From Oscillospiraceae bacterium (GTDB lineage: Bacteria; Bacillota; Clostridia; Oscillospirales; Ruminococcaceae), in the NCBI GenBank assembly GCA_021200565.1, contig JAJQGJ010000019.1, positions 124,001-188,000 on the forward strand: DNA of 64,000 nucleotides. The letters run 5' to 3'. The position numbers and the translations under genes are program-made. This document shows, one piece after another, positions 8,041 through 58,323 of this stretch. Numbering within the stretch: position 1 is the first letter of the stretch; each line of letters begins with the position of its first letter. The notes under the pieces were generated by a model that worked only from the letters and a program-made list of their open reading frames with translations, searched no databases and was not told the origin of the DNA.

Positions 8041-8061
8041 GCAGACATTGGAGAAGAGATA

Positions 8062-8713: not shown

Positions 8714-9894
8714 ATGGACAAAAAATATAAAATCCTACTAGTCCACAACTACTACCAAATCCCTGGTGGCGAGGACACCGTAGTTGCCAACGAGAAAAAA
8801 CTTCTCGAAGACCACGGTCACGAAGTCATCATCTACACCCGAAACAACTCGGAGCTCAAAACCATGTCAAAAGCTCAGAAGCTCATGCTTCCGTTCACAA
8901 CAGTTTTCAATCCGAAGACATATAGAGAAGTCAAGAAAATCATCAAAGATGAGCATATAGACATTGTCCACGTCCACAATACTTTGAATTTGATTAGTCC
9001 ATCCGTCTACTATGCAGCATTTTCCTGCAAAGTGCCCGTAGTGCAGACCATACATAACTTTCGCTTGTTGTGTCCAGGAGCGACTTTCTATAGAGACGGG
9101 CATATCTGCGAGGATTGCGTTGAGCACGGTTTGGGCTGTGCTGTGAAGTATTCCTGTTACAGAGGTAGCAAGCTCCAAACTCTGATGTGTGTGATTACGA
9201 CAAAGATTCATCGTGCACTCGGAACTTACGGAAAGCTGAATTACATCTGCCTGACGGAGTTCAACAAGCAGAAGCTGTTGCAACTAAACAGACCTGGCAA
9301 GAAACAGATTATTGACCCTGCAAGAGTATATGTAAAACCGAACTTTACGTTTGAAACTGTTGAGTGTGGGGGGTACTCGAAAATGAGTATTTCCTCCTCA
9401 TCGGACGAGTCGAAAGAATAAAGGAATTAGACATACTTTTGAAAGCATTTGCAGAGTTGCCGGACGAGCACCTTGTAATCGCCGGCACAGGTACGCAGTT
9501 TGAAGAATACAAGGCTATGGCGACTAATAATGTTGAGTTCGCTGGATTCCTGAATCGTGAGAAATTGGCGGAAGTGACACGAAAGGCAAAAGCAGTGATA
9601 GTGACGTCTCAGTGGTACGAGACATTCGGAATGATTATCGCCGAGGCGTATGCGGCACACAAGCCGGTCATTGTAGGCGACATCGGAAACATTGCTTCAC
9701 TGGTTGATGACAGAAAGACAGGGTTAAAGTTTAAGTACGATTCCGCCAAATCACTTAAAGAAGCAGTCGAGCAATTTGAGAATCTCGATAGCACTAAGAT
9801 TGGCGAAGAAGCCTACAGTAAGTATAGAAAAGAGTTTGCCCCAGATGGCAACTATCAGACATTAAAGGCTATATATGATAGTGTGAGGAATTAA
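8714..9894 (+). CDS. GT4 family glycosyltransferase, frame broken at a poly-G tract (phase-off form)
   Basis: This is one group-1 glycosyltransferase in two frames. The first part runs from ATG 8714 and holds the N-terminal Rossmann domain (start KILLVHNYYQIPGGED, then VHVHNTLNLISPSVYYA). It hits G6 at 9368-9373 and stops at 9421 after about 17 aberrant residues. The second frame continues past the tract with YFLLIGRVERIKELDILL and the nucleotide-sugar domain, including the E-rich motif ETFGMIIAEAYAAHKPVIV, to TAA 9894. A tract of 7 or 4 G would join the frames into about 393 residues with a normal GT4 layout, the tract falling in the interdomain linker. As written, the gene makes only a truncated first domain. 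A sequencing indel is the alternative, weakened by five similar tracts in the same locus. Confidence 0.85.
9368..9373 (+). repeat. Poly-G tract 1 (G6)
   Basis: Six G residues in the context AGTGTGGGGGGTACTCG, inside the GT4 gene at the domain linker. The present length puts the gene out of frame; 7 or 4 G would restore it. GAGT before and ACTC after the tract are reverse complements. Confidence 0.9.
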
Positions 9895-9902
9895 ACGTAA
9901 TC

Positions 9903-10424
9903 ATGCGAGATTATTTTATCTATGTCGGCAGACTGGACGAGCTAAAAGGAATAAAAATCCTCTTTGAGGCATGGAAACAGATGGGTGGGCAAGCCCCAAA
10001 GCTGGTCGTCTGTGGCACAGGACCGCTTGAAGATTGGTGCCACGATTTCTTGAAAGTCAACCCGAAACTGAATATAGAAATGCTCGGTTTCGTACCTAAT
10101 GCAGAAGCCAAAAAGCTAATCGCAGACGCAAAAGCCTTGATTTTGCCGACGCAGTGGTACGAAGGCTTCCCAATGACGATTCTGGAGGCGTATTCAGTAG
10201 GAACGCCGGTGATTGGTTCGGACATTGGAAATGTTGGGGATCTGATTGAGGAAGGCTTGACAGGGTATAAGTTTAAATTTGATTCGGCTTCTTCTCTGGT
10301 TGGTGTAATCCAAGGGCGCAACTTCAATATTTGCGAAAGTGTTAAGAGAGTATACGAAGATCAGTATTCAAGTGAACATAATATCATCCAATTAGAAGCT
10401 ATATATGATCGAGTCTCACGGTAA
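9903..10424 (+). CDS. Orphan C-terminal domain of a GT4 glycosyltransferase
   Basis: This 173-residue protein contains only the second, nucleotide-sugar-binding domain of a group-1 glycosyltransferase: DYFIYVGRLDELKGIKILFEA, GTGPLEDW and the EGFPMTILEAYSVGTPVIGSD motif. There is no acceptor domain. It is a paralogue of the second half of the preceding gene and begins at the same domain boundary where that gene has its poly-G tract. The frame is open back to 9882, only after a stop, so no N-terminal half is encoded directly upstream, and the start lacks a clear ribosome site. It could be a leftover of a domain duplication, a donor for domain exchange by recombination, or a subunit pairing with a separate acceptor domain. 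Confidence 0.75.
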   Translation: MRDYFIYVGRLDELKGIKILFEAWKQMGGQAPKLVVCGTGPLEDWCHDFLKVNPKLNIEMLGFVPNAEAKKLIADAKALILPTQWYEGFPMTILEAYSVGTPVIGSDIGNVGDLIEEGLTGYKFKFDSASSLVGVIQGRNFNICESVKRVYEDQYSSEHNIIQLEAIYDRVSR

Positions 10425-10440
10425 AAGGGGCAAAAACCTG

Positions 10441-11355
10441 ATGAGTGATATGAAAAGTACGTCTGGCATATTGGAACAGGCACTGAAATTTGAAAAAACT
10501 AAAATGAAGGACTCATCGCACTTTGTTCTTTGCAACAGAGATAAGATTCGATACATAATAGCTCCCAGCGGAAAGAAACGGCTGAGTCAGAATATCTCGA
10601 CGTATTCCGGCAAGCTGGGACTGCTGATGAAATATCTGAACTGCATTCCATTTTGGCTGCTCGAAAAAGCTGGAATGGGCTATTTTGCAAAAATAGAGCT
10701 TCATTCTGAAATAGAAAAGGCGTTCGAGCAGACTGGCAAGAGCGTATGGAACATGATTGTCGGAACATATGATGAGAAGCAAAAACTCGTAATGCAGTGC
10801 TTTGGAAATGATACAGAGGATGCGGTCTTTATAAAGATAGGAAACTCAGCTACTGTTAAGGAAATGACGGCGGAGATGGATTTCTTGAATCGGTCAGGAA
10901 AATATAGAACTTTTAAAGTTCCACAGCTGGTCGCAATTTTAAAAGCTGATAATACTAATCCGTTCAATATGCAGCTTACAAGGGAGTTTAAAGGTGAAAA
11001 AGTCGAACCGGTTCTTACAGAAGATATTGTCGAAATTTACAAGGAAATATCGGCTATAAAATTTGGAAAGCAACCGGCAGAATATGAATTTTCACATGGT
11101 GATTTTGCGCCTTGGAATATAAAAAAGACGGGAAACTGCTATACGGTATTTGACTGGGAGCAATGTGGCTACAGAATGGCAGGCTATGACATCATGCATT
11201 ATGTAACAGTTATAGGCGTTGCTCTGAATAACCTTTCTTTTGAAGATGCTTATGAAAGTGGCATTAAAGAGATTAGAAGGTATATCCCTAAGTTTGAGAT
11301 AGACAAAGAAACATTTTTAAACGAGTTTAGAAGACTGATAACACAGCTTGCATAA
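10441..11355 (+). CDS. Aminoglycoside-phosphotransferase-fold kinase
   Basis: This 304-residue protein has the kinase catalytic loop SHGDFAPWNI followed by VFDWEQCG, the Brenner and metal-binding motifs of the APH/choline-kinase fold. The N-terminal third carries a hydrophobic patch (IPFWLLEKAGM) and no signal peptide. ATG 10441 is preferred with AAGGGG upstream; the earlier ATG 10405 would overlap the previous gene. Within this locus it lies next to two nucleotidyltransferase-like proteins and probably phosphorylates a sugar or polyol rather than an antibiotic (inference). Its stop is directly followed by the next gene. Confidence 0.75.
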   Translation: MSDMKSTSGILEQALKFEKTKMKDSSHFVLCNRDKIRYIIAPSGKKRLSQNISTYSGKLGLLMKYLNCIPFWLLEKAGMGYFAKIELHSEIEKAFEQTGKSVWNMIVGTYDEKQKLVMQCFGNDTEDAVFIKIGNSATVKEMTAEMDFLNRSGKYRTFKVPQLVAILKADNTNPFNMQLTREFKGEKVEPVLTEDIVEIYKEISAIKFGKQPAEYEFSHGDFAPWNIKKTGNCYTVFDWEQCGYRMAGYDIMHYVTVIGVALNNLSFEDAYESGIKEIRRYIPKFEIDKETFLNEFRRLITQLA

Positions 11356-11376
11356 GTGAAAAGGGCAGTGGATGAT

Positions 11377-12693
11377 ATGAGTTGCGAAGTTGATTTCGTG
11401 AAAGCCATATTTAAGGCGTTTGAAAAGGACAATATAAAGTTTTGTGTGCTCCGCAATGCTGATGAGGTCGAGTATGGTGATGCACACGATATAGATATGA
11501 CTGCCGATGCAGACAGGTTGGTTGATGTTGAAAACATCATGCTTAGAGTTGCCGGTGAATGTGGTTGGAAAATACACATAAAGACTGGTTCTTCTAAAGA
11601 CAAGATAAATATTAAGTGCTATCATTTTTATTTTGCTGATGAGAATTTGAAAGAAATACATATTGCACATTTTGATGTGTTTCCTACATTCGCTTGGAAC
11701 GGCTACGTTCTTCTCGAAAATGCAAGCTTTATAGATAACATCGACAGCAGCAGTGTAATACATAAGGCTGACCCTGCCGTAGAAGCCGTTACAAAGCTCT
11801 TTATCAGACTTCTTCACAATGGATATATCAAGAGCAAGTATAAGGAATATATAAGCGATGTATTTTCTTCTCATGAGAAGTCTGTTAAGACTCTTATGGA
11901 GAACTTTCTTGATGCTGACACGGTTAAATTCGTTTATCAGGGTGTTATGAACTCTGAGTGGACTAAGATAGAAGAACAGCGTGATAGGATAGTCAAATCA
12001 ATCCAAAAGTCAGCGAGGAAAAGTAAGATTTCTTACTATAAATATCTTCTGAAGAAAGCGAAGGACAAGCCAGGCTTGATGGTTGCCTTTGAAGGGACAG
12101 ACGGTAGCGGCAAGAGCACGATTATTGACGGCTTAGAGCAGGTACTTGAAAACTCATTTCCTAAAGGAATGTTTGACTATAACCACTGGAGACCTGGAGT
12201 CATTGTAAAGAAAAAAGGCGGTGCATCCGGCGAAAGCATTGTCGTCACAGAGCCACACGCAAAAAAGCCATACGGACGTATAAAGTCTTTTTTGAAGTTC
12301 ATGCTTTTCAATTTTGATTACCTATTCGGCTATTGGCTTAAGGTGAGGAAACAACTTTCAAAGGGACACTTAGTTGTATTCGATAGATATTACTACGACT
12401 ACTACATGGATAAAATTCGGTATCGTCTCAGTATCAGCGACAAGGTTCTTGATTTCTTTAAATTCATGATTCCCAAGCCGGATGTGACATTCCTACTTAT
12501 CGGTGATCCACAGGTTTTGTACGAGAGAAAGAAAGAAATTGATGTGAGCGAAATAGAGGAGCAGATTCAGCGGCTGAGAGCAAATGAGCACAAATTTGCT
12601 CATGCGGTGGAGATTGATGTTAACGAATCCATTGATGATGTCGTGTATAATGTTGCAAAGGAAATTTTAAATTCATGCGATGCGAAGTGCTAA
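11377..12693 (+). CDS. Nucleotidyltransferase-like plus thymidylate-kinase-like fusion protein
   Basis: This 438-residue two-domain protein has an N-terminal part resembling the nucleotidyltransferase fold (FCVLRNADEVEYGDAHDIDM with paired aspartates near residue 38). The C-terminal part, from about residue 235, is a P-loop kinase of the thymidylate-kinase type with EGTDGSGKST at 239-248 and a later DRYYYDYYMDK motif. It sits directly after the kinase-fold gene and before a paralogue of its first domain. Members of this architecture are found in polysaccharide loci, but the substrate is not known to me; phosphorylation of a sugar intermediate or polymer end is a guess. ATG 11377 has GGGCAG upstream; GTG 11356 is the alternative start. 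Confidence 0.75.
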   Translation: MSCEVDFVKAIFKAFEKDNIKFCVLRNADEVEYGDAHDIDMTADADRLVDVENIMLRVAGECGWKIHIKTGSSKDKINIKCYHFYFADENLKEIHIAHFDVFPTFAWNGYVLLENASFIDNIDSSSVIHKADPAVEAVTKLFIRLLHNGYIKSKYKEYISDVFSSHEKSVKTLMENFLDADTVKFVYQGVMNSEWTKIEEQRDRIVKSIQKSARKSKISYYKYLLKKAKDKPGLMVAFEGTDGSGKSTIIDGLEQVLENSFPKGMFDYNHWRPGVIVKKKGGASGESIVVTEPHAKKPYGRIKSFLKFMLFNFDYLFGYWLKVRKQLSKGHLVVFDRYYYDYYMDKIRYRLSISDKVLDFFKFMIPKPDVTFLLIGDPQVLYERKKEIDVSEIEEQIQRLRANEHKFAHAVEIDVNESIDDVVYNVAKEILNSCDAKC

Positions 12694-12721
12694 GTAAAAT
12701 ATCGACATGGAGGAGTAGGCA

Positions 12722-13683
12722 ATGAGAAAAGATATAGCATATATCATAGATTGCTTTAGTGAATTTGAAAAAGCCGGTATTAGATACTGTGTGCTTCGTA
12801 ATGCAGATGAGATAATAAGCGGAGATTTACACGATGTTGATATAGCGGTTGATTTGAAACATAGTGATCAAATTCTAAAAATCATACGCAGAAATGGCTG
12901 GAGGGTTGTCTACTCCGTTTGGCGAGATTTTGGGAATGTGTGGACGGTTGTTACATCTGCAGATGAGGGAGAGTATATTGCTCATTTCGATTTCCAATCA
13001 TACGGTTGGGATGGCATTAACTTACTGTCAGCAGAAATGCTTTTAGAAGATAGACGGAAAGTCGATGGGATTTATGTAGCAAGTGATTCTGTTCAAGCAG
13101 TGACGATGCTTTTCTCAAGATATTTATATCATGGCTACATAAAAGAGAAGTACAGAGATTTTATACGCAAAGTGTATTTATCCAATCAATGCAAAGTAAA
13201 AGAATTGATGAACTCATTTCTTACAACAGAGTTTGTGAATGTAATATATGAAGATGTTGTTTCGGAAGATTGGAAAAATATTGAACAGGAATGTCCTGTA
13301 GTAAGACGTACGATCAGATTAGTCAACAAGAAAAAGCAGAAGAGTAAAGTTTCAAAAGCTAAGTTTTATCTAACCAGAATGATAAATCCACGAGGTATTA
13401 TCTTAGATGTCTCTCAGCTCGATGAGGCTGACTGCAAGAATATGATTCGCATATTGCCACAGCAACTCAATCATCTTTTTACAAAAGATGAATTGATAGA
13501 AAGCAGCAGTGTGGGGGGGTACTCGCACATTTGTGCAAGGGTCAATGTGTTGTTGCTGAGAATGTTCCCTTGATATTACATCGATATTCTTGTAAGATTG
13601 AAAACGAGGATATAAATGATTGTATGAAGCTTAATAAAAAAGTTATATCAAAAATGAATTCATTATATGATGTTAAGTGGTAA
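12722..13683 (+). CDS. Nucleotidyltransferase-like protein, frame broken at a poly-G tract (phase-off form)
   Basis: The first 260 or so residues are a paralogue of the first domain of the preceding protein (YCVLRNADEIISGDLHDVDI). As written the gene passes through G7 at 13513-13519 and stops at 13573 after an odd tail (283 residues). The alternative frame past the tract reads GVLAHLCKGQCVVAENVPL and continues cleanly to TAA 13681-13683. A tract of 8 or 5 G would give about 320 residues. The downstream frame shows ordinary protein-like composition. A GGAGGAG site lies before ATG 12722. No P-loop is seen, unlike the preceding gene. Function in the locus is unknown; a role in glycan decoration is inferred. 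Confidence 0.75.
13513..13519 (+). repeat. Poly-G tract 2 (G7)
   Basis: Seven G residues in the context CAGTGTGGGGGGGTACTCG, inside the nucleotidyltransferase-like gene near its 3' end. Flanks on both sides match tract 1 closely. The gene is out of frame at this length; 8 or 5 G restores a longer product. Confidence 0.9.
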
Positions 13684-13697
13684 GGAGCGACTTCGCT

Positions 13698-14813
13698 GTG
13701 AAATACAACTACCTGATAGTCGGCTCCGGCTTATACGGAGCAATCTTCGCACACGAGGCGAAAGAAAAAGGAAAGTCAGTTCTTGTTGTGGACAAGCGTC
13801 CGAATATCGGCGGCAATGTATATACAGAAAAAATCGAGGGCATCAACGTTCATAAGTATGGCGCACATATCTTCCATACTAACAACAAGAAGGTCTGGGA
13901 CTATGTGAACCAATTTGCTGAGTTCAATCGCTTCACGAACTCGCCGGTTGCGAACTACAAGGGTGAGCTTTACTCGATGCCGTTCAATATGTACACCTTC
14001 AACAAGATGTGGGGCGTTGTCACTCCAGCGGAAGCCGAGGCAAAGATTAACGAGCAACGGGCGGAAGTTACTCACGAGCCTCAGAATCTTGAAGAACAGG
14101 CAATTTCACTTGTTGGGCGAGATGTCTATGAGAAGCTCGTCAAGGGCTACACTGAGAAGCAGTGGGGACGTGACTGCAAAGACCTTCCGGCGTTCATCAT
14201 CAAGCGTCTTCCGGTGCGTCTGACTTTCGACAACAACTACTTTAATGCTCTCTATCAGGGCATTCCAATTGGCGGTTATACAAAACTGATTGAGAATCTT
14301 CTCGATGGCATAGAAGTTCGGCTGAATATTGATTATTTGGAGAATAAGGCAGAATTGGATTTGATGGCGGAAAAGGTTGTCTACACCGGTCCGATTGATG
14401 CGTATTTCGGCTATAAGCTTGGCTATCTTGAGTATCGCTCGGTTCGTTTTGAGACCGAACTTCTCGACATTCCGAATTTCCAGGGCAATGCGGCTGTCAA
14501 CTACACCGACCGTGAAACGCCTTGGACAAGAATCATCGAGCATAAGTGGTTCGAGTTTGGCAAGGACGAGAACGGCAACGACCTGCCGAAAACCGTCATC
14601 AGCCGTGAATATAGCTCCGAGTGGAAGCCAGGCGATGAGCCGTACTATCCGGTGAATGACGAGAAGAATAGCAAGCTGTATCAGCAGTACAAAGAACTCG
14701 CTGAGCAGGAGACCAATGTTATTTTCGGCGGACGCCTTGGCGAGTATAAATACTATGATATGGATCAGGTTATTGCCGTTGCATTGGATATGTGTGAAGT
14801 AGAACTATCTTAA
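13698..14813 (+). CDS. glf: UDP-galactopyranose mutase
   Basis: This 371-residue FAD enzyme interconverts UDP-galactopyranose and UDP-galactofuranose, so the polysaccharide probably contains Galf. The FAD motif YLIVGSGLYGAIFAHEA opens the protein. Family stretches follow: KRPNIGGNVYTE, GAHIFHTNN, the EKQWGRDCKDLP region near residue 150, and the end with YKYYDMDQVIAVALD. Length is typical. GTG 13698 is preferred as start, 10 bases after AAGGAG at 13682-13687. It directly follows the extended frame of the phase-off gene upstream. Confidence 0.95.
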   Translation: MKYNYLIVGSGLYGAIFAHEAKEKGKSVLVVDKRPNIGGNVYTEKIEGINVHKYGAHIFHTNNKKVWDYVNQFAEFNRFTNSPVANYKGELYSMPFNMYTFNKMWGVVTPAEAEAKINEQRAEVTHEPQNLEEQAISLVGRDVYEKLVKGYTEKQWGRDCKDLPAFIIKRLPVRLTFDNNYFNALYQGIPIGGYTKLIENLLDGIEVRLNIDYLENKAELDLMAEKVVYTGPIDAYFGYKLGYLEYRSVRFETELLDIPNFQGNAAVNYTDRETPWTRIIEHKWFEFGKDENGNDLPKTVISREYSSEWKPGDEPYYPVNDEKNSKLYQQYKELAEQETNVIFGGRLGEYKYYDMDQVIAVALDMCEVELS

Positions 14814-14826
14814 GGAGATAAATTTG

Positions 14827-15586
14827 ATGGACATTAAAATTGTGATTGCAGCTCACAAGAAGTATTGGATGCCAGACAATCCTATGTATATTCCAGTTCA
14901 TGTTGGTGCGGAAGGCAAGGAATCGATTGGATATGTCGGTGACAACACTGGCTATAATATTTCAGAAAAAAACAATATGTATAGAGAACTCACAGGGATG
15001 TTGTGGGGGGTACAACCTAAAGTTTGATTACTTTGGATTAGCCCATTACCGAAGACATTTCTGTTATAAGAAAAAAGGCTCTGCAAAAGACAGTATCCTG
15101 ACTAAGAGTCAGGCTGAAGAGTTGTTTAGGACAACGGATATTATTGTTCCTAAGAGACGTAAGTATTATATTGAGTCGCTAAGTAGCCACTTCAATAATA
15201 TGAGATTGTCAACGGATACCGATTTGGCAGTATTAAGGAATGCTGTTGTGAAAATATCACCAGACTATGGCTCTGCCGTTGATGTGGTTTTGAGCCGTTC
15301 ATGGGGGCACATGTTTAACATGTTCATCATGAAAAAGGATATTTTCGAGCGGTATCGTGACTGGTTTTTTGCGGTGCTTGATGAAGTTGAGAAAAACATA
15401 GATATGTCTTCGAGTATACACCCAAACAGAAGTAGCATCATTGGATATGTTGCTGAATTTTTGTTGGACATATACTTAGAAGCAAACAATCTGCCTTACA
15501 AGGAGATTAACACAGTTTTCTTGGAGAGGCAGAACGAAATGAAGAAGATATATAAATTCTTCATTCGAAAGTTTAGAAAAAACTAA
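14827..15586 (+). CDS. DUF4422 glycosyltransferase-like protein, frame broken at a poly-G tract (phase-off form)
   Basis: DUF4422 proteins are capsule-locus glycosyltransferase-like enzymes. The N-terminal part starts IKIVIAAHKKYWMP at ATG 14827, after AAGGAGA, and reaches the expected YRELTGMLWG segment. It then meets G6 at 15005-15010 and stops 8 codons later at 15027. The next frame begins exactly there with YNLKFDYFGLAHYRRHF, the hallmark DUF4422 motif, and runs to TAA 15586. With 5 or 8 G the joined protein is about 252 residues, the usual length. The present sequence would make only a 66-residue fragment. The exact fit of the two halves argues for length variation of the tract rather than gene decay. 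Confidence 0.85.
15005..15010 (+). repeat. Poly-G tract 3 (G6)
   Basis: Six G residues in the context GTTGTGGGGGGTACAAC, inside the DUF4422 gene. GTTGT and ACAAC flank it as inverted arms. The gene is out of frame; 5 or 8 G restores it. Confidence 0.9.
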
Positions 15587-15640
15587 GTTCTGTTCATACT
15601 AGAATGATATATCCAATCCTGCTAAGGGAAAGGATGTATC

Positions 15641-16849: not shown

Positions 16850-16866
16850 AGTGAGGAAAATAAAAA

Positions 16867-17631
16867 ATGGGCGAGAAAGTTTCGATAATCACAATTTCAT
16901 ACAATTCAGAGAAAAGCATTGAAGCTACGATGTGTTCTGTCTTAGAACAAACCTATCGCCCATTGGAGTATGTGCTTGTTGACGGCGGATCAACCGATGA
17001 AACAATACATTTGATAGAATCGTATATCCCCAAATTCCGTGAGGCAGGTATTGAGACGAACTTCAAATCGGAACCCGATAAAGGCATAAGTGATGCTTTT
17101 AATAAGGGAATTGAACGGTCAACTGGAGATATTATCGGGATTATAAATTCGGATGATAGGCTTGTTGATAAACAAATTCTTAAAAAAATAGTAGATTCAT
17201 TTGATAGTGACTGTGAAGTAATATGCGGAGATATATTGTGGGTCGATGAAGTTAATAATATGCAATATGTCAGAAAATCATCTATGAAGCTCAAGAAGCT
17301 AAAGTATGACATGGTTCTTATGCATCCGGCTTGTTTTGTAAAGAAGACAGCTTATCAGAAGTATGGAACATTTGACGTTGAGTTTCGTTATGCAATGGAC
17401 AAAGATTTAATGGCGCGGTTCTACAGTAATGGGGCTAAATTCCAAAGGTTCCCAGAAGTCACTACTATTATGTCTGCCGGAGGAGCAAGCGATGAGAACG
17501 CAAAAAAGGTGTTTCAGGAGGGTGTTGAGATTGGAGTACGTAACGGAGTTCCTAGATTGGTAATGAGAACAAGAGAAAAGTATAAGACAGCACGCTTGAA
17601 ACTGATAAATATTTGGAAGCGTGGGGGGTAG
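16867..17631 (+). CDS. GT2 family glycosyltransferase
   Basis: This 254-residue inverting GT-A fold transferase of the WcaA type has VSIITISYNSEKSIEATM at the start, the DGGSTDETI turn, INSDDRL as the metal-binding DxD-type site near residue 97, and the AMDKDLMARF helix near residue 177. The gene ends in GGG-TAG formed by the 3' edge of poly-G tract 4, so its stop depends on the tract length. With 7 or 4 G the frame runs on into the acetyltransferase downstream, making a fusion of about 447 residues. With 5 or 8 G it ends about 7 codons later. Confidence 0.9.
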   Translation: MGEKVSIITISYNSEKSIEATMCSVLEQTYRPLEYVLVDGGSTDETIHLIESYIPKFREAGIETNFKSEPDKGISDAFNKGIERSTGDIIGIINSDDRLVDKQILKKIVDSFDSDCEVICGDILWVDEVNNMQYVRKSSMKLKKLKYDMVLMHPACFVKKTAYQKYGTFDVEFRYAMDKDLMARFYSNGAKFQRFPEVTTIMSAGGASDENAKKVFQEGVEIGVRNGVPRLVMRTREKYKTARLKLINIWKRGG

Positions 17632-18203
17632 AAGATTTAGAAAGACTCCGTAGAAAGCCCTATTTGTATGACTTATATCGTTGGACGGGTAAAACAGATT
17701 TTAGGACTTGGGTTCATTGGATGGGCATTTCCAAATATAGAGTAATGTATTTATTTCGAAAATGCAAAAAATATAAGGATAGGAATAAATTATTATTTTA
17801 TTTCTGGCGGATGATATATGGTCATTATGCTACCAAGTATGGAGTAGATCTTGGAACGACAACACAAATTGGATCTGGTTTTATAATCAGACATGTCGGA
17901 GGCATAGCAATAAATGGCGGTGTTATTATTGGAAAAGATTGCGAGATACTTCAAGGTGTCACTATCGGCTATGAGCGTAGAGGCAAGCGTCAGGGGAATC
18001 CGACAATAGGCGATAGAGTCTGGATTGGCTCAAACGCAATAATGGTTGGTAATATAAAGGTAGGCAATAATGTGTTGATTGCTCCGGGAGCATTTGTAAA
18101 TTTTGACGTGCCTGATGATAGTATTGTTATTGGCAATCCGGGGAAGATAATTCCATCGGAGAAAGCGACTGATGGATATGTTGTTAACACGTTGGATATT
18201 TAA
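17613..18203 (+). CDS. Serine-acetyltransferase-like left-handed beta-helix acyltransferase
   Basis: Up to 196 residues. The N-terminal helices (RKPYLYDLYRWTGKTDF) and the hexapeptide-repeat domain (IGSGFIIRHVGGIAINGGV, then GNPTIGDRVWIGSNAIMVG and NNVLIAPGAFVNFDVPD) match the CysE-like acetyltransferases that decorate polysaccharides. The start is doubtful: the conserved part begins about residue 12, the TTG at 17613 has no ribosome site, and no ATG is suitably placed. It may be translated only by run-on from the GT2 gene when the poly-G tract between them has 7 or 4 G, or by re-initiation at the tract. Acetyl transfer to a sugar is inferred. Confidence 0.75.
   Translation: MEAWGVEDLERLRRKPYLYDLYRWTGKTDFRTWVHWMGISKYRVMYLFRKCKKYKDRNKLLFYFWRMIYGHYATKYGVDLGTTTQIGSGFIIRHVGGIAINGGVIIGKDCEILQGVTIGYERRGKRQGNPTIGDRVWIGSNAIMVGNIKVGNNVLIAPGAFVNFDVPDDSIVIGNPGKIIPSEKATDGYVVNTLDI
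17623..17628 (+). repeat. Poly-G tract 4 (G6)
   Basis: Six G residues in the context AAGCGTGGGGGGTAGAAG, at the junction between a GT2 gene and an acetyltransferase gene. The TAG stop of the GT2 gene overlaps its 3' flank. Tract length decides between separate proteins and a fusion. Confidence 0.9.
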
Positions 18204-18221
18204 TATATATCGAAATAAAGC

Positions 18222-19571: not shown

Positions 19572-19588
19572 TATATAAGGAGTACTAT

Positions 19589-20734
19589 ATGAAAATCATA
19601 GCTTTTTATTTGCCACAATTTTATGCATTTCCAGAAAATGATAAATGGTGGGGAAAAGGATTTACAGAATGGACCAACGTAAAAAAGTCAAAGTCCCTAT
19701 TTCGTGGGCATGTGCAGCCAACTATTCCGCTGAACGATAATTTTTATTCTCTGGAGGAAAAGTCGACTTTTGAGTGGCAAATTTCACTTGCAAATAAATA
19801 TGGTGTATACGGCTTCTGCTTTTACCACTATTGGATGGGAGAAGGACGTCAACTCATGGAGAAGCCGGTTGATATATTTTTAGCCAACAAAGATTTAGAC
19901 CTTCATTTTTGTTTGAGTTGGGCAAATCATAATTGGGCGCGTACTTGGACTGGCGGAGATACAGACATACTGATGGATGTTAAGTACGGTGACGAAGAAG
20001 AGTGGGAGAAGCATTTTCAATATTTACTACCGTTTTTTAGGGACGGCAGATACATTAAGTTTGATGGAAAGCCGTTACTTGTTATTTATCAGCCCGAAAA
20101 AATAGAGTGTGCAGATGACATGTTTGCATACTTAAATCGCAGGGCAGTTGAAAGCGGTCTTAATGGGATTTCATTTGTTTCTCAATCTCAGACTTATTTG
20201 ATGAATAATGCATCCGTAAGTTGTATCAGCAAATCGATTCAGTACGAGCCAGACTATTCTAAAACGTGCTATATGAGACATCGTATGAGTACTGTTTGCA
20301 AAAACCTAATGAAGAATCCAAAGTTTATATTCAACATGGTGGGACAAGACTGTAAAAAGGCATTGAATTCTTTGACAAAAGGAAAAATCAAATCATTACA
20401 TTTATGCAAGTATAACTACGATGGAATTTGGAAGTTCATTTTGCAAAGACAAGCACAAGAAAATATCATTCCGTGTGCATTTGTGAATTATGATGCCTCT
20501 CCTCGTAAAGGGTTTAATAGTACAATTGTATGCGGATTCACTCCTGATAAATTTGGAAAGTATCTAAAGCAGCTGATTGCAAAAGCGAAAAATGAGTACC
20601 ACACTGACTATCTGTTTCTTATGGCTTGGAACGAGTGGGGCGAAGGAGCTTATGTTGAGCCGGATGAGCATAACAAATATAGTGTTTTAGAAAATATAAG
20701 GAAGGCACTTTCTTCAACGGGGGAATTAGAATGA
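19589..20734 (+). CDS. WbsX-like glycosyltransferase
   Basis: This 381-residue protein has the opening IIAFYLPQFYAFPENDKWWG and FTEWTNVKKSKSLF, and later FCLSWANHNWARTW near residue 108 and LMAWNEWGEGAYVEPD near the end. These are landmarks of the WbsX family (also drawn as glycoside hydrolase 99-like), found in O-antigen and capsule loci. It is cytoplasmic, with no signal peptide. It overlaps the next gene by 4 bases (ATGA), so the two are coupled. Whether it transfers or hydrolyses sugars is not settled from sequence. Confidence 0.88.
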   Translation: MKIIAFYLPQFYAFPENDKWWGKGFTEWTNVKKSKSLFRGHVQPTIPLNDNFYSLEEKSTFEWQISLANKYGVYGFCFYHYWMGEGRQLMEKPVDIFLANKDLDLHFCLSWANHNWARTWTGGDTDILMDVKYGDEEEWEKHFQYLLPFFRDGRYIKFDGKPLLVIYQPEKIECADDMFAYLNRRAVESGLNGISFVSQSQTYLMNNASVSCISKSIQYEPDYSKTCYMRHRMSTVCKNLMKNPKFIFNMVGQDCKKALNSLTKGKIKSLHLCKYNYDGIWKFILQRQAQENIIPCAFVNYDASPRKGFNSTIVCGFTPDKFGKYLKQLIAKAKNEYHTDYLFLMAWNEWGEGAYVEPDEHNKYSVLENIRKALSSTGELE

Positions 20735-21891
20735 AAATAGGCTTGTTAGGCTTCGTAGCAGAAGATGCGAATAAGGGATGTGAAGCCCTTACATATTCCT
20801 TTTTAAGTATGTTGGATAAAATGACAAATGATGATTTGGAGGTCCATTTTTTTACTCCGGATGCTTCTCTTGATAGATTGATGAATCAATTTCCCAATAT
20901 CAAAATGAGCATCGGCAGATTGAAAATCAAGGACCCTAAATTTAAGTGGCGTAAAATGATAAAGTCCTGCGATTTTGTTTGTGATATTACCTGTGGCGAT
21001 GGGTTCTCAGATATATATTTTCCCAAGAATGTATTTTATACTACGCTATTTAAAATACTAGTTGAAAAATGTGGAACACCGCTCTATTTGTTGCCACAGA
21101 CATATGGACCTTTTAGCGATAAAAAGCTGGAAACGATGGCAAAGTATGCGATTAAGCACGCTGATTTTGTAACAACAAGAGACCAGTTATCAGCTGAATA
21201 TGTGAGAAAGCTTACAAGGGTTAATCCTATGGTTGTTACTGACTTAGCTTTTGCTTTACCGTATGATTCAAAGAAATATTCTGTTGATAAAAGAAAGCTG
21301 AATATTGGAATCAATGTATCGGGATTATTGTGGAACGGTGGATTTATTAGGAACAATCAATTTTCGTTATCAGTTGATTACAGAAGATATATTACTGAGT
21401 TGATTTCAGCTCTAAAAAAGAGGGATGACGTTGAAATACACATTATTCCTCATGTAATTGAGACTGATTCAGATGATATTGATGGAGATGTTAGTGTATG
21501 TAGGGGCATAGCAAAAGAGCACAGCTTAATAGCTGCACCAGCTTTCACAGATCCTACTGATGCAAAGAGTTATATTAGTAGCATGGACGTATTTCTTGGG
21601 TCAAGGATGCACTCAACTATAGCTGCGTACTCATCTCATGTTCCGGTTGTTCCCTTTTCATATAGCCGTAAGTTTGAAGGATTATATGAGAATCTCAATT
21701 ATGATTATGTTATTCATGGTTGCACAGATAGCACGGAAGCTGCAGTTGAAAAATCGTTAGAGTGGATTGAAGATAAAGATAATCTCAGAAGCGCAATAAA
21801 TAAATCTATGAATACTATTGATCAGTATCTATATGATTTTGAAAACGCTATGAGGGGTGAAATAAGTAAATTGAAAGGGGAACAGTCTTGA
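20731..21891 (+). CDS. Polysaccharide pyruvyl transferase family protein
   Basis: This 386-residue member of the family adds pyruvate ketals to sugars using phosphoenolpyruvate, which puts negative charge on the polymer. It opens KIGLLGFVAEDANKGCEALT, and continues with LPQTYGPFSDKKL near residue 118, TRDQLSAEYV, and near the end LGSRMHSTIAAYSSHVPVV, the GSRMHS turn that marks this family. ATG 20731 overlaps the previous stop. The next gene, an FrhB-like protein, is the usual neighbour of this family in capsule loci. Confidence 0.88.
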   Translation: MKIGLLGFVAEDANKGCEALTYSFLSMLDKMTNDDLEVHFFTPDASLDRLMNQFPNIKMSIGRLKIKDPKFKWRKMIKSCDFVCDITCGDGFSDIYFPKNVFYTTLFKILVEKCGTPLYLLPQTYGPFSDKKLETMAKYAIKHADFVTTRDQLSAEYVRKLTRVNPMVVTDLAFALPYDSKKYSVDKRKLNIGINVSGLLWNGGFIRNNQFSLSVDYRRYITELISALKKRDDVEIHIIPHVIETDSDDIDGDVSVCRGIAKEHSLIAAPAFTDPTDAKSYISSMDVFLGSRMHSTIAAYSSHVPVVPFSYSRKFEGLYENLNYDYVIHGCTDSTEAAVEKSLEWIEDKDNLRSAINKSMNTIDQYLYDFENAMRGEISKLKGEQS

Positions 21892-23054
21892 GTTTTTATG
21901 ATTTTTGTTCCGGCTGTGGTCTTTGTCACGATATTTATGATATAGACTTTTGCAAGGATAGTAAAGGTTTCTATTATCCCAACTTTGAGGGCAAAGAAGC
22001 AGAAAAAGCATCTATGGTTTTCGTTCGCCCATTCGGGAAAAATGGTGTGAGAAAGTATAATGGAAGTGTATGGGGAGATTATCACGGAGTATTCCAAGGG
22101 TGGTCCACGGATGAAGAACTACGAACTAAAGCATCTAGTGGTGGCGTGGTTTCTGCTTTAGCGGCGTACCTTTTGACTCATAGCTTGGTTGACGGCGTTA
22201 TTCAAGTAAAAGCCTCGGAACATGAGCAATATTCAACAGATGTTGTATGTTCAAGATGTGTTGAAGACATATATTCTTGCTCTGGATCACGTTATTGCCA
22301 ATCATCTCCTTTGTATAATCTTTCCGCTTTTTTGAGAGAAGGAGAAAGATACTGCTTTATCGGAAAGCCCTGTGACGTAGCTGCAATCAGAAACTATATG
22401 GATTCCGATGAGGAACTGAGGAAAAGAATTCCGTATTTAATCTCTTTCTTCTGTGCTGGAATCCCAAGCGAAGATGCAAACAAGAAATTGCTTGATGAAT
22501 TGAAATGTGACAAATGCAAGGAGCTTCGTTATAGAGGAAATGGATGGCCTGGGCTTACAACAGCCATAGATGACGATGGCAATGTACACACAATGGAATA
22601 TGAGAAAAGTTGGATTGAGATTCTCGGCAGGGATATAAGAAAGTCATGTAAGTTTTGCTTTGATGGAATTGGCGAACGGGCAGATATTTCATGTGGTGAT
22701 TATTGGTATTTAGATAGCGATAATAAACCGAATTTTACTGAGAATAAAGGTAGAAATATTGTTTTTGCATGGACAGAAAAAGGCGAAGGCTTATTGAATA
22801 AAGCATCCGCAGAAAATGTGATTCATCTGGATGAAATTGATGATCAGATGGGCATCTTCAAGTTTGTTCAGCCAAATCATTATTCCAAAAGAACAACTAT
22901 TCTTAGTAAGGTTCTTGCACTGAGGTTTATGAGGAAGAACGCACCTGGATATAAAACAGTAAATATGCTTGGTTATGCAAAAAACATATCGCTTATTTCG
23001 CTTTTGAAATCGTTTAAGGGAACCGTAAGCAGGGCAAGGAAAAACACGCTGTAA
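21888..23054 (+). CDS. FrhB/coenzyme F420 hydrogenase beta-subunit-like protein
   Basis: This 388-residue protein starts at TTG 21888, overlapping the previous stop. Cysteine motifs CSGCGLCHDIYDIDFC at the N-terminus and CKFCFDGIGERADISCGD near residue 262 suggest iron-sulphur clusters, and GKPCDVAAIRNY with SSGGVVSALAAYLL match the FrhB-type domain. Such proteins commonly pair with pyruvyl transferases in polysaccharide loci, where their redox role is uncertain. True F420 chemistry is unlikely in this context (inference). Confidence 0.85.
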   Translation: MSFYDFCSGCGLCHDIYDIDFCKDSKGFYYPNFEGKEAEKASMVFVRPFGKNGVRKYNGSVWGDYHGVFQGWSTDEELRTKASSGGVVSALAAYLLTHSLVDGVIQVKASEHEQYSTDVVCSRCVEDIYSCSGSRYCQSSPLYNLSAFLREGERYCFIGKPCDVAAIRNYMDSDEELRKRIPYLISFFCAGIPSEDANKKLLDELKCDKCKELRYRGNGWPGLTTAIDDDGNVHTMEYEKSWIEILGRDIRKSCKFCFDGIGERADISCGDYWYLDSDNKPNFTENKGRNIVFAWTEKGEGLLNKASAENVIHLDEIDDQMGIFKFVQPNHYSKRTTILSKVLALRFMRKNAPGYKTVNMLGYAKNISLISLLKSFKGTVSRARKNTL

Positions 23055-23084
23055 GTACTATGGGATAACTAAGGAGTATAAGAG

Positions 23085-23717
23085 TTGAATATTAAGTTTT
23101 TTGACTTTCCTTTTTTGGGGAAACATTTTATTATGCCTAAAGTAATTCGTAAAGAGGGCGGGCAACAACAGTCGAAAAGTTTGCGTAGTTATTATCAAGC
23201 GCGGTATAAAGTAAGTGTAGATATGTATAGTTACGGTTGTTTCGATCCGGATTTCAATTATGCTGTGGGCGGAGAAATTCATGTTGGAAGATACTGTTCC
23301 TTTGCCAAAGACGTGCATTATTTCGCAGCTAACCATCCGATGAATTATGTTGCAATGTCTCCGTATTTTTATAATCCTTCCTTTGGACTTAAAGTTAATG
23401 ACGTTGAAAGAGGTACATTATCAATTGGGCATGGTGTGTGGTGTGGATACGGTGTTCTTATAACTTCGGGATGTAAAAGTATTGGTAATGGTGCTGTTTT
23501 GGCGGCGGGATCGATTGTAACGCATGATGTTCCAGCATATGCTGTTGTTGGTGGTAATCCTGCACGAGTGATTAAATATCGTTTTGATGATGATACTATA
23601 AAGGAAATTGAAGAATCGAAGTGGTGGGAGCATAATCCAGATGAAATTATGGAGTTCTATGGCTTGATTGATAAGCCGATTGAATTTTCTAAAAAGATTG
23701 TATCTTGCAAACATTAA
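23085..23717 (+). CDS. CatB-type hexapeptide acetyltransferase
   Basis: This 210-residue left-handed beta-helix acyltransferase of the chloramphenicol/virginiamycin type has GGEIHVGRYCSFAKDVHY, the catalytic-histidine region FAANHPMNYVAMSPYFYN, and GHGVWCGYGVLITSGCKS. TTG 23085 is chosen because AAGGAGT lies nearby upstream. In this locus it is probably an O-acetylating enzyme for the polysaccharide, not a resistance enzyme. Confidence 0.88.
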   Translation: MNIKFFDFPFLGKHFIMPKVIRKEGGQQQSKSLRSYYQARYKVSVDMYSYGCFDPDFNYAVGGEIHVGRYCSFAKDVHYFAANHPMNYVAMSPYFYNPSFGLKVNDVERGTLSIGHGVWCGYGVLITSGCKSIGNGAVLAAGSIVTHDVPAYAVVGGNPARVIKYRFDDDTIKEIEESKWWEHNPDEIMEFYGLIDKPIEFSKKIVSCKH

Positions 23718-23735
23718 CCTTGGAGGTGTCTGTAC

Positions 23736-25115
23736 TTGCAAAATAACTCGTTAAAAAGCAATATAATGAGGGTTCTATCTGCGAATTTTTTAGTAGCAGC
23801 TGTTGGCTTTATTGGCAGCTTTATTTTCCCTAGAATTTTATCTATTGATTCATATGCCCAATACCACACATTCACCTTATATGTTAGCTACATAACAATA
23901 CTGCATTTGGGCTTTCCTTCAGGAATGGTTGTGAATTATGCGGGAAAGGATGTTAGTGATTTAGATAAGAACCGCTTGAAGACTGAAAGTCTGATCACGT
24001 TTTTTATTTTACTTTTCTTCTCCATCGTTTTTACAGTAATCGCTCTGGTATCAAAAAGCGAAATACTGTTTTATATAGCAATTGTAATATTGCCGTTTTG
24101 TAGTGTAGGAAGTTATAGATCTTTATTGCAAGCTTGGAGTCAGTTTAAAACTTATTCACGCATAAGCATGGTGTTATCGGTATCTGTGCCATTGCTTGCA
24201 TTGACAATATATTTAGTATCTGGTAGTCTCTCAGGACGACAGTACATATTGTCCTATTTGTTTGTGTACTGGGCGGCATTCGTGTGGATGCTTTTTCAAG
24301 TATTTCGTATTTTGAAAGGCTCTCATTGTACTAAATTTTTAAGTAAGGATAATCTAGACACAGAGAAAACAGGTATTGTGATGGTTTTGGGCAGCTATAT
24401 CAATACTTTATTTACATCAGTTGATAAGCAGTTTGTTAACTCCTTTTTTAGTACATCGGATTTTGCTTATTATTCTTTTGGGCTTTCCTTGCAGTCGTTA
24501 ATGACAGTTTTCATTACTTCAATAGCGCAACCTTTATTTCCTGCAATGGCGCAGGGAAGATGGGAGGATAAGGAATACAATAGCATAAAAGAGTTGCTTT
24601 TTATCTTCGGAACGCTATCTGGGTGTGCTTATTTCGCGGCTTCTATAATCGTTAAGGCTTTTATACCGAAATATGTAGATAGCTTAGAAGTCATTGTTGT
24701 CTATTTTTTGGTTTTCCCCGCTATGGCAGTTGTGAATTGCATATATGTAAACTTATACAAAATTAAGAAGAAGACAGCAACATATACTAAAACATTAATT
24801 GGTCTCTTGCTTTTAGCTGTTGTTTTAGACACCATAGCTGTCCGTGCCTTGAATAACTATATCGGAATTGCAATCGCAACAGTGATTATTTATTATATAT
24901 GGCTTGTGGTGGGCGGATTCCAATTTAAATTTATAAAAATTAAGCTACGAGACGTATTGTACCTGTTGCTTTTTGTTGCTGTATTTCTTGTATTTGTAAA
25001 TTGCATTAATAACGATTTTGTTGGCTTCTTTGCATACTTTATAGTAATTGCTTTGCTTGACTTGGTCGTCTATGGTAAGAATTTAAAGAAATACATTTCA
25101 TTTTATAAAAAGTAA
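23736..25115 (+). CDS. Polysaccharide flippase (Wzx/MATE-like)
   Basis: This 459-residue protein has about twelve to fourteen hydrophobic segments and the family opening NFLVAAVGFIGSFIFPRIL. FTSVDKQFVNSFFSTSDFAYYSFG in the middle corresponds to the loop seen in oligosaccharide flippases. It would carry the undecaprenyl-linked repeat unit across the membrane for polymerisation by the Wzy-like protein. TTG 23736 follows a GGAGGTG site. Confidence 0.9.
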   Translation: MQNNSLKSNIMRVLSANFLVAAVGFIGSFIFPRILSIDSYAQYHTFTLYVSYITILHLGFPSGMVVNYAGKDVSDLDKNRLKTESLITFFILLFFSIVFTVIALVSKSEILFYIAIVILPFCSVGSYRSLLQAWSQFKTYSRISMVLSVSVPLLALTIYLVSGSLSGRQYILSYLFVYWAAFVWMLFQVFRILKGSHCTKFLSKDNLDTEKTGIVMVLGSYINTLFTSVDKQFVNSFFSTSDFAYYSFGLSLQSLMTVFITSIAQPLFPAMAQGRWEDKEYNSIKELLFIFGTLSGCAYFAASIIVKAFIPKYVDSLEVIVVYFLVFPAMAVVNCIYVNLYKIKKKTATYTKTLIGLLLLAVVLDTIAVRALNNYIGIAIATVIIYYIWLVVGGFQFKFIKIKLRDVLYLLLFVAVFLVFVNCINNDFVGFFAYFIVIALLDLVVYGKNLKKYISFYKK

Positions 25116-25169
25116 GATGTCAGTAAGAGCTAAGCTTTGTAAGAGCACGAAAACTTGGAGGATGCCGAT

Positions 25170-26220
25170 ATGAACTATAAGGAAAATTCTTTTGACGTAA
25201 TTAGATTAGTTGCTTCAGTACTGATCATGTTTTCTCACTATTCTGTTGCGGTTTTTGGATTAGAAAACCTGGCATATAGTAGATTCCTTTTTGCTGGTGC
25301 TTCATTAGTTGCTTTCTTTGTAATATGTGGTTTCTTCCTTATACCATCTTTGGAGCGGTCAAGTGGAGGAGTTTATCTTACGAAGAGATTCTTCCGAATC
25401 TACCCTGTATATATCGTTAGCATTATCGCCATGATTATAGCTGCATATGTGCTGAGTGTGATTCAGGGGGGTACAACTTAGTGCCGAGGGTGTACTGATT
25501 TTTGCAGTAAAAATGATATTAAAGCCAAACGGTAATGAGATATGTGGCATCAGTAACGGAGCAATATGGGCTATATGGATTGAACTTCAGATTTACGTGC
25601 TAGCGGTGCTTTGTAAAAAAGTGCTTCTTGGCAATAGCAGCAAGATCTTTTGGGGGATTATATTTGCGTGTGCTTTTCTTATTAATCTGATTGGAAATGC
25701 GTTTGTCAAACTTTGTCAAAATAATGGATTTGGAATTGTGGCTAAAGTATATTCTAGCAGCTTTTTGCCGTATCTGTACTTTTTCTTGATTGGAGTGCTG
25801 GGATATAAGTTCAAAGACAGTGTAATACGATTTATCTGTAATAATCTCATTTACATAACAGTCGCATTTTTGGCATGGCATTTGCTGATAAAGTATCATG
25901 TCGAAGCACTTGCAGAAGCGGGATATTATACAGATCCTATAACTGTACTGTTAGCAGGAATGTTGACATTAGGTCTTGCGTTTCGGTATGGAAAGTGTCG
26001 CCCTAAGGTTGAATTATCGTATGGAATATATGTATGGCATATGCCGATAATAACTTTTCTCATACAGGTTATTTCAGGAAGAGAATGGTTGTTGATTCTG
26101 ATTTCAATGGTATTAACATTTATATTTGCCACTTTGTCTAATATTTTCATTGAAAAGAAAATACAAAAAATAGAGAGCCACATTTTACAGAGAGGGGTAT
26201 TTAGAAGTGAGTGTCAATAA
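25170..26220 (+). CDS. Acyltransferase 3 family membrane protein, frame broken at a poly-G tract (phase-off form)
   Basis: O-acetylating membrane enzymes of this family modify surface polysaccharides. The N-terminal part (ATG 25170, FDVIRLVASVLIMFSHYSVA with the catalytic-histidine motif, then RFFRIYPVYI) reaches G6 at 25466-25471 and stops at 25485 (TAG 25482-25484). The next frame picks up after the tract and gives ISNGAIWAIWIELQIYVL and eight further membrane segments to TAA 26220. With 5 or 8 G the joined protein is about 349 residues, the normal family length. The present allele yields only about 105 residues. Stop positions: the downstream frame has no ATG before 25513. Confidence 0.85.
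25466..25471 (+). repeat. Poly-G tract 5 (G6)
   Basis: Six G residues in the context GATTCAGGGGGGTACAACTTAG, between two membrane segments of the acyltransferase. It shares TACAAC with tract 3 on the 3' side. The gene is out of frame; 5 or 8 G restores it. Confidence 0.9.
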
Positions 26221-26640
26221 ATGTTTGCGATTAGGAAGAAAAGTGTGGGGGGTAGGCGCCTGATTAGTTGGTTTATGTGCCATTACTATGGATGTGATAT
26301 TCCACTAGATACTAATATTGCTGAAGATGTTTCATTCCAGCATTCTGCATTGGGTGTTGTGATTAGCAAGTACGCAGTTGTTGAATCTAAGGTTATTATT
26401 CAGCATGGTGTCACATTAGGAGCTTCAAAAGGCTTGGAAAATGCACCCATAGTTCGTAAAGGAGCAATTCTTGGGGCAAGAGCTACAATTATTGGGCATG
26501 TTGAAATTGGTGAAGGCGCGATTGTTGGTGCTGGCGCAATTGTAACTAAAGATGTGCCACCATTTCATACAGTAGTAGGTGTCAACAAAGTATTTCCCAA
26601 TTCATCAGAAATGGAGACTATTCGTAAGAGCTTTGAATGA
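26221..26640 (+). CDS. Serine-acetyltransferase-like O-acetyltransferase, phase-on form
   Basis: This 139-residue hexapeptide-repeat acetyltransferase has CDIPLDTNIAEDVSFQHSAL, VIIQHGVTLGASKGLENA and GEGAIVGAGAIVTKDVPP. Shorter than CysE, it resembles the polysaccharide-locus forms. Codons 9 to 11 run through poly-G tract 6 (G6), and the gene is in frame as written. Losing or gaining one G would stop translation early unless re-initiated at ATG 26275. The start directly follows the TAA of the acyltransferase. Confidence 0.85.
   Translation: MFAIRKKSVGGRRLISWFMCHYYGCDIPLDTNIAEDVSFQHSALGVVISKYAVVESKVIIQHGVTLGASKGLENAPIVRKGAILGARATIIGHVEIGEGAIVGAGAIVTKDVPPFHTVVGVNKVFPNSSEMETIRKSFE
26247..26252 (+). 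repeat. Poly-G tract 6 (G6)
   Basis: Six G residues in the context AAAGTGTGGGGGGTAGGCG, in codons 9 to 11 of the acetyltransferase gene. Same GTGT before and TA after as most other tracts. This tract is in the in-frame state. Confidence 0.9.
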
Positions 26641-58196: not shown

Positions 58197-58323
58197 TCGC
58201 CCCCTCAGTCGCACTACGTGCGCCAGCTCTCCCAGAGGGAGAGCCAAGAAGCATTCCTCTCTGAAAATCTCGGCTCCCCCTCTGGGGGAGCTGTCAGCCG
58301 AAGGCTGACTGAGAGGGTGCGCA
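58197..58323. repeat. Inverted pair of GC-rich mobile repeat units
   Basis: Two arms of about 50 bases, one near 58197-58250 and one near 58272-58323, are imperfect reverse complements (the plus arm contains GGCTCCCCCTCTGGGGGAGC and the other arm CAGCTCTCCCAGAGGGAGAG). Each arm is itself a hairpin. This type of unit is scattered through Oscillospiraceae genomes (my recollection, not checked). The pair sits between recA and recX. Confidence 0.75.

Follow-up and report, generated by a model that had tools for sequence, protein, structure and literature searches.

G tracts followed by TA point to multi-locus phase variation of mostly surface genes in a clostridial genus

Phase variation by poly-G slippage is textbook biology in Campylobacter, Helicobacter and Neisseria. 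In the neisserial genes porA and opc, the poly-G run lies between the -35 and -10 boxes and alters the length of the spacer. For Campylobacter, the tract cut-off is 7 and lengths peak at 9–10 G (PMC6321876). In the gut bacterium Bifidobacterium breve UCC2003, mixtures of G-tract lengths have been measured (PMC9187656). Phase variation driven by repeats at many loci has been described chiefly in pathogens; among the possible reasons, a 2025 review lists bias in the databases (PMC11868660). For Clostridia, searches of the open-access literature, judged from titles and abstract openings, listed no account of phase variation through G tracts. Here we analyze a 64,000-bp stretch of an Oscillospiraceae genome (contig JAJQGJ010000019.1 of assembly GCA_021200565.1, positions 124,001–188,000; G000:C17:124001-188000 in our numbering), called the window below, whose polysaccharide locus carries six short G tracts, each followed by TA. 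The genome, G000, comprises 2.18 Mb in 24 contigs. Its 35 runs of G6–9 followed by TA very probably belong to a system of multi-locus slippage phase variation that acts on mostly surface genes in a clostridial genus. The type of mechanism, simple-sequence-repeat phase variation as in Campylobacter, is already known; what is new here is the clostridial host, the short tracts, an RNA (leader) mode and a near-obligate TA flank.

An initial annotation of the window had placed tracts at 9368, 13513, 15005, 17623, 25466 and 26247, and all six lie there, with G7 at 13513 and G6 at the others; a run scan of the 64 kb returned no other G or C run of at least six. Each is directly followed by TA. Directly 5′ of the tracts, GT is found in five of six cases, the exception being 25466 with CA, and AGTGT or GTTGT in four, as had been described. 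Within the window, both strands counted, TA follows 4–10% of G1 to G4 runs and 0 of 13 G5 runs; at a base rate of 7%, six of six would arise by chance with a probability of about 1e-7. The tracts and the genes that they touch, all on the + strand, are as follows.

8714..9421, +, N-terminal half of a GT4-type glycosyltransferase gene, Glyco_transf_4 (Pfam); the frame ends shortly after the tract
9364..9894, +, C-terminal half, Glycos_transf_1 (Pfam), in a different frame from the N-terminal half
9368..9373, +, G6-TA tract where these two halves meet
12722..13573, +, open frame spanning the 13513 tract, without Pfam match
13513..13519, +, G7-TA tract close to the 3′ end of an unassigned gene; the homologue in genome G006 likewise has G7, and frames disagree
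14806..15027, +, first part of DUF4422, profile positions 1–60 (Pfam)
14846..15586, +, frame with the second part of DUF4422, profile positions 63–219 (Pfam)
15005..15010, +, G6-TA tract that splits the DUF4422 gene
16867..17631, +, glycosyltransferase family 2 (GT2) (Pfam)
17613..18203, +, hexapeptide-repeat transferase (Pfam)
17623..17628, +, G6-TA tract between the GT2 frame and the hexapeptide transferase frame
25155..25481, +, Acyl_transf_3, profile positions 2–97 (Pfam)
25466..25471, +, G6-TA tract that splits the Acyl_transf_3 acyltransferase; the G006 homologue likewise has G6 and is split
25513..26220, +, Acyl_transf_3, profile positions 114–323 (Pfam)
26221..26640, +, hexapeptide acetyltransferase (Pfam), an open frame in G000
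26247..26252, +, G6-TA tract at the start of the hexapeptide acetyltransferase gene, in frame with the near ATG here

Where the initial annotation counted four genes out of frame, there are five: at 9368, 13513, 15005, 17623 and 25466, the long frame before the tract and the one after it do not agree. Its statement that the halves join at recognizable domain sequence holds at 15005, 25466 and 9368, where Pfam matches are split, and not at 17623 and 13513, which offer open frames only. At 26247, the tract is in frame with an ATG eight codons upstream, and an alternative start 13 codons upstream lies in a different frame, so the state of this gene depends on the start taken. Independent switching of the glycosyl-, acyl- and acetyltransferases of the locus would give mixed glycans in a clonal population, presumably in a number of forms.

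The system is broader than this polysaccharide locus, with 35 sites genome-wide; the genes concerned in G000 include those for pilins, BspA-like and further secreted proteins, an ABC exporter and a PD-(D/E)XK nuclease. In the whole genome the pattern GGGGGGTA occurs 35 times, against 0 for its reversed control, and TA follows 35 of the 53 runs of at least six G (both counts merged). All 18 runs without TA were read, and none has long open frames in different phase on its two sides. Some non-TA runs resemble promoter or leader types: those at L009:6239 and L198 stand before a -10-like box, and that of L199 is a leader run with TT. Because a few such promoter- or leader-like runs carry another flank, TA is near-obligate rather than absolute. 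A palindromic repeat with CCCCCTCT and then five to seven G recurs at window positions 58276–58288, at L013:7616 and at L028:4635, and accounts for some of the long G runs that lack TA.

Across the genus, GGGGGGTA is found 712 times, against 148 for the reversed control; it is present in 31 of 31 genomes and exceeds the control in 28 of them. The abundance falls off outside the genus. In the remainder of the family, 103 of 145 genomes are at or below their own control and 42 are above it, mostly by little, and at 80 loci of other genera TA follows only six of 86 runs of at least six G. One outlier, G113, with 119 forward matches, owes most of its count to about a hundred copies of GGGGGGTA at a spacing of about 65 bp, resembling a CRISPR array (G113:C2:173320-180303); it was rejected as an instance of the same system because the matches are mostly this array.

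To see what the tracts do, we turn to individual loci. This reading took in 154 of the 253 GGGGGGTA sites in eight genomes, at loci chosen for carrying the pattern, a choice that biases TA shares, the flank consensus and TA conservation; the whole-genome, genus and family counts and the comparison with five-G runs are unbiased. The genomes are draft assemblies in numerous contigs. A rough script sorted the 154 sites into 68 coding-like, 47 leader, 23 promoter and 16 unclear. In 144 of 154 cases, a frame of at least 100 amino acids on the same strand crosses the site or lies within 600 bases 3′ of it. Five sites fall inside an opposite-strand frame of at least 150 amino acids, and one of these, L060:1809, has no same-strand frame.

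Where a tract is preceded by at least 60 open codons and followed by at least 100, the flanking frames disagree in 14 of 19 cases and agree in five. At control runs of the same loci, disagreement is much rarer: 44/468 for G4, 13/62 for G5, 22/153 for A6+ and 8/77 for T6+ (Fisher's test for the TA-flanked tracts, 2e-10 against G4 and 5e-5 against G5). With looser limits, frames disagree at 22 of 30 tracts. The same-frame share of 5/19 fits one-third, and disagreement is near the two-thirds expected under random phase. A change in tract length would shift the frame and leave the gene whole or split; the frame states themselves are observed. The split frames might instead be decayed genes or homopolymer errors of assembly, which are a common kind of error and a concern for draft genomes in many contigs. 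We hold this to be quite unlikely, as the splits concentrate at TA-flanked G tracts and not at A6+, T6+ or G4 runs, the same-frame share is that of random phase, and a run of six or seven is short for sequencing error.

Tract length also changes between relatives. At a flank identity of at least 88% (three pairs below the limit, with lengths 7/7, 6/6 and 7/6, were dropped), it differs in nine of 21 homologous pairs, which are not independent of one another (8/17 between genomes), against eight of 65 other homopolymer runs (p = 0.004). In the five coding pairs above the limit, the compared flanks have no indel, and the tract differs in three. Three orthologous genes have opposite frame states, together with different tract lengths, in two species:

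pair 1, window 17623 and G006 L034:10970
pair 2, window 26247 and G006 L034:2349
pair 3, G011 L072:13021 and G014 L078:1653

The G006 counterpart in pair 1 has G7 and a single continuous frame, and the G7 of the G006 homologue in pair 2 gives a different frame relation to the near ATG. The flank is retained over larger distances: in 335 of 341 directed homologous matches, with identity down to 66–70%, the partner is also a run of at least six G with TA, the partner loci being chosen for the pattern. Alternatively, genes that are never off might yield fused proteins because ribosomes undergo programmed frameshifting, or RNA polymerase slips, at the G run; slippery runs within genes and the hairpins after some tracts would suit this reading. 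It is very unlikely here, given that homologues are in different phases, that the shift between frames varies among sites, and that structure downstream of 41 coding-like tracts shows no excess (mean z -0.23).

In hand-picked coding sites, the flank consensus has G at -2 (39/46), T at -1 (33/46) and C at +3 (28/46); at the pattern-chosen loci as a whole, GT or GC stands directly 5′ of 121 of 156 tracts. Spread of the coding flank by recombination is unlikely because the genes are of different families and the consensus covers only about five bases on each side. One coding tract, at L016:6712, separates the signal-peptide frame of a pilin from its LPXTG frame. Among 14 further proteins scanned from the promoter, leader and coding classes, nine have Pfam matches: SpaA or other pilin domains, LPXTG anchor, BspA leucine-rich repeat (LRR), InlB-type repeat, ABC transporter, GDSL lipase and PDDEXK_2. 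By their sequences, the tract-bearing genes appear to be mostly surface genes, possibly phage-facing.

The promoter tracts lie where their length would matter. Near-consensus -35 and -10 boxes were found in 22 of 24 scanned promoters that hold the tract in the spacer, and spacer lengths are 14 (five promoters), 15 (11), 16 (four), 18 (one) and 20 (one). The optimal distance between the boxes is 17 bp. Promoter cassettes that are otherwise identical occur with six or seven G; since the other bases are the same, the spacer change is uncompensated. Tract length thus sets the distance from TTGACA to the -10 box, and from the optimum one would expect it to alter promoter strength. The TA of these tracts is part of the -10 box itself. 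Among the genes after promoter tracts are one for a PDDEXK_2 nuclease, others for ABC exporters, and some with lipoprotein-like starts.

One promoter cassette, TTGACATTTGC-like with G6/7 and TA, recurs at L024:7192 and in L064, L065, L067, L069, L072, L073 and L080, with two copies close together in L067 and in L069. The copy at L024:7192, in G000, precedes a PD-(D/E)XK (PDDEXK_2) gene at 7644–8594. It is possible that the genes driven by the cassette are phase-variable defence genes.

With the random frame phase at coding tracts, the length differences and opposite states of homologues, and the tract-bearing promoter spacers, the multi-gene phase variation that the initial annotation had proposed is supported. 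The G count would change by replication slippage, and the genes would switch within a population.

The leader class suggests a third level of control. By eye, 38 of 47 leader genes begin with a signal peptide or membrane segment, and the class includes SpaA pilins, a BspA-type LRR protein and an InlB-type repeat protein. A promoter-like site lies 30–110 bp upstream in 31 of 47 leaders, compared with three of 47 random positions. Hairpins follow the tracts (mean z -1.77): a perfect stem of at least four pairs comes right after TA in 24 of 47 leaders, with 12 different 5′ arms and followed by CCC in 20 of the 24, and is found in only nine of 68 coding sites. In the leaders, the TA is part of the stem. 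An alignment of 20 chosen leaders keeps GGG:CCC pairing in 19, these pairs enclosing stems of differing sequence, and then a CCUCC:GGAGG hairpin, whose end in the folded leaders is close to the start codon or to a U run. Covariation contributes little to the consensus fold (term of -0.38), with two-sided change in three of 11 pairs.

This arrangement suggests that the G run may pair either locally with ACCC or with the CCUCC arm of the downstream GGAGG hairpin, and folding predicts that longer runs favour opening of that hairpin. At spacings of up to 35 and with the fold begun at -60, predicted pairing of the G run with CCUCC exceeds 0.5 in two of 18 G6, seven of 14 G7, three of three G8 and none of one G9 leaders; among these short-spacing leaders, tract length correlates with predicted CCUCC capture (Spearman 0.42, p = 0.01).

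A T-box or other known riboswitch was considered and rejected for want of an Rfam match at the loci searched. A search of the G000 loci L009-L015 and L017-L026 together with the window (267620 bases) returned one tRNA only, and one at a loose threshold of L022 and four further loci returned a tRNA beside the L037 leader and otherwise matches below the gathering score. Similar intergenic stretches of three species, L022:4414, L030:2287 and L059:1907, share an upstream site of promoter type, a G run that varies in length and a hairpin resembling a terminator, with no close same-strand gene start by eye. L022 gave no Rfam match above the gathering score. These stretches may encode a small RNA bearing the tract.

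Leaders with a G-rich foot and a hairpin also bring to mind the ends of a mobile or repeat element, of the repetitive extragenic palindromic (REP) kind, or recruitment sites of an antiterminator (ops/LoaP-like), and we take GGGGGGTAG to resemble ops. This explanation is most improbable and is largely refuted: coding sites lack the hairpin excess, their consensus extends only about five bases on each side, and there is a single NusG. Two specific candidates of this kind were rejected, LoaP/RfaH recruitment sites because the nine genomes searched, of which five belong to the genus, have one NusG match apiece, and a REP- or MITE-like (miniature inverted-repeat transposable element) hairpin as common cause because hairpins follow leader tracts and not coding tracts, and the coding sites have no shared body of sequence.

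Several points weigh against slippage phase variation. Tracts of 6–7 G are shorter than runs usually called hypermutable, and two long MutS proteins are present, so that slippage rates could be low. Draft assemblies can hold false indels, and the homologous pairs include identical copies (L012 and L026). Five of the 14 scanned promoter-, leader- or coding-class proteins have no Pfam match. The length effect in leaders is a folding prediction only, in which related leaders are counted more than once; with folding begun at the tract itself, the trend weakens (above 0.5 in 4% of G6, 19% of G7, 29% of G8 and 0% of G9 leaders), 16 long-spacing leaders show no length trend, and the sole G9 leader opposes it. 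Further, simple slippage predicts a pile-up at five G, and G5TA has no excess in G000 (24 against 32 in the control) or in G011 (22 against 42), which gives both genomes a sharp lower edge at six G. Finally, the TA flank is not accounted for by slippage on its own.

In G017-G029, most genomes have more G5TA than reversed control, e.g., 220 against 86 in G023, which counts against a strict six-G edge there; several genomes near G000 are like it in having no such excess.

The flank has a local cause in part, namely the -10 box in promoters and the stem in leaders; coding sites have neither. The initial annotation had read the shared flank as a hint of a dedicated element. The flank is real and genus-wide, as the counts in G000 and the genus and the site consensus attest; that it marks a dedicated element or enzyme is a hypothesis. 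One may suppose that a sequence-specific factor, protein or RNA, binds GYG6-9TA, that the G run is mainly its binding site, and that the factor promotes length change. The TA after 35 of 53 runs in G000, the GT or GC before 121 of 156 tracts at pattern-chosen loci, the lower limit of six G that G000 and G011 show, and the 144 of 154 sites with a same-strand frame over or close after them would all suit such a factor. So would the lack of an obvious reason for TA under slippage, as flanking sequence in C. jejuni is reported to have no influence on slippage products (PMC4965091).

G–TA runs with lengths of their own in other clostridial genera point the same way. G8TA is found 248 times across 293 class genomes, against 119 reversed, and in 13 class genomes selected for G8TA excess, TA follows 106 of 188 runs of at least eight G. 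At loci chosen by the pattern in G166, TA follows 22 of 28 runs of at least six G, and 19 of the 22 have 8–11 G. Against a factor, none was found as a candidate, though no systematic search was made; one NusG match per genome leaves no RfaH/LoaP paralogue, a third MutS-like protein is also present in G065, which has no tract excess, and TA is partly caused locally. We regard the factor as possible but doubtful. A wider proposal, tentative and rather unlikely, is that several lineages of Clostridia share a dedicated switching system, in which a trans factor reads G-Y-G(n)-TA and drives or biases length change. Lengths would then be held at lineage-specific values (6–7 here with the edge at six, mostly nine in genus g133, mostly 8–11 in G166), and tens of surface genes would be controlled at DNA and RNA level by one code.

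In genus g133, at G8-pattern loci of six genomes (L212-L223, L229 and L230; coding and non-coding), 16 of 18 sites have exactly nine G and the others eight and ten, a narrower range than the usual spread of slippage.

Two repair-related candidates were set aside. Loss of mismatch repair was rejected on a test confined to MutS: two long MutS_V proteins, whose lengths fit MutS1 and MutS2, are present in all nine genomes examined. Beside these, genomes of the genus have a third MutS-like ATPase of about 565 amino acids (L178:3364-5061), patchy in the family. It is present in five of five genus genomes and in none of four others, but it was rejected as the dedicated factor because G065, whose tracts show no excess (2 against 3), has a copy with 69% identity.

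Slippage phase variation thus remains our favoured explanation, and the tracts resemble contingency loci in four respects. They occur far above chance (35 against 0; 712 against 148). Their length decides frame, promoter spacing or, by prediction only, RNA structure. That length varies more than other sequence (9/21 against 8/65). Finally, they lie in surface or possibly anti-phage genes, as judged from the polysaccharide enzymes of the window and the Pfam matches in nine of 14 further proteins. With about 35 tracts and three levels of control, a clostridial genus thus seems to turn on and off its polysaccharide enzymes, pili and secreted proteins, and perhaps defence genes as well, and genome annotation and strain-level metagenomics would label many such genes broken. 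The TA flank and the six-G edge make it testable whether slippage at contingency loci is passive or guided by sequence-specific machinery.

Compared with Neisseria porA and opc, the promoter tracts here precede genes for ABC exporters, lipoprotein-like proteins and a PD-(D/E)XK nuclease, and their flank is common to coding and leader tracts. The leaders have a parallel in a system in which a variable G run in the 5′ leader sets expression at the RNA level; there, the run is read by a small RNA in trans (PMC8295292), whereas the partner proposed here, ACCC or CCUCC, is in cis. A RepG-like trans small RNA, for which three loci were looked at, might also act here.

The sortase-dependent pili of B. 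breve UCC2003, likewise a gut Gram-positive, have a G tract between signal-peptide and LPXTG frames, as at L016:6712; they differ in their reported tracts of G11 and G12, in one or two pilus loci per genome and in coding tracts only (PMC9187656).

The C. jejuni phasome likewise has numerous G tracts in genes for surface glycans, with frame phase at random and lengths that differ among relatives. On the sense strand of ten C. jejuni tracts, the run is followed by TAT in Cj1318 and Cj1335, by T with the next base not shown in four, by AGG in Cj1296 and by A in three (PMC7173850). Thus T comes first in six of ten, and these ten tracts show no TA rule, whereas TA is found nearly always here. The present system further differs from that of C. 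jejuni in its tracts of 6–7 G and in having tracts in promoters and in structured leaders as further classes.

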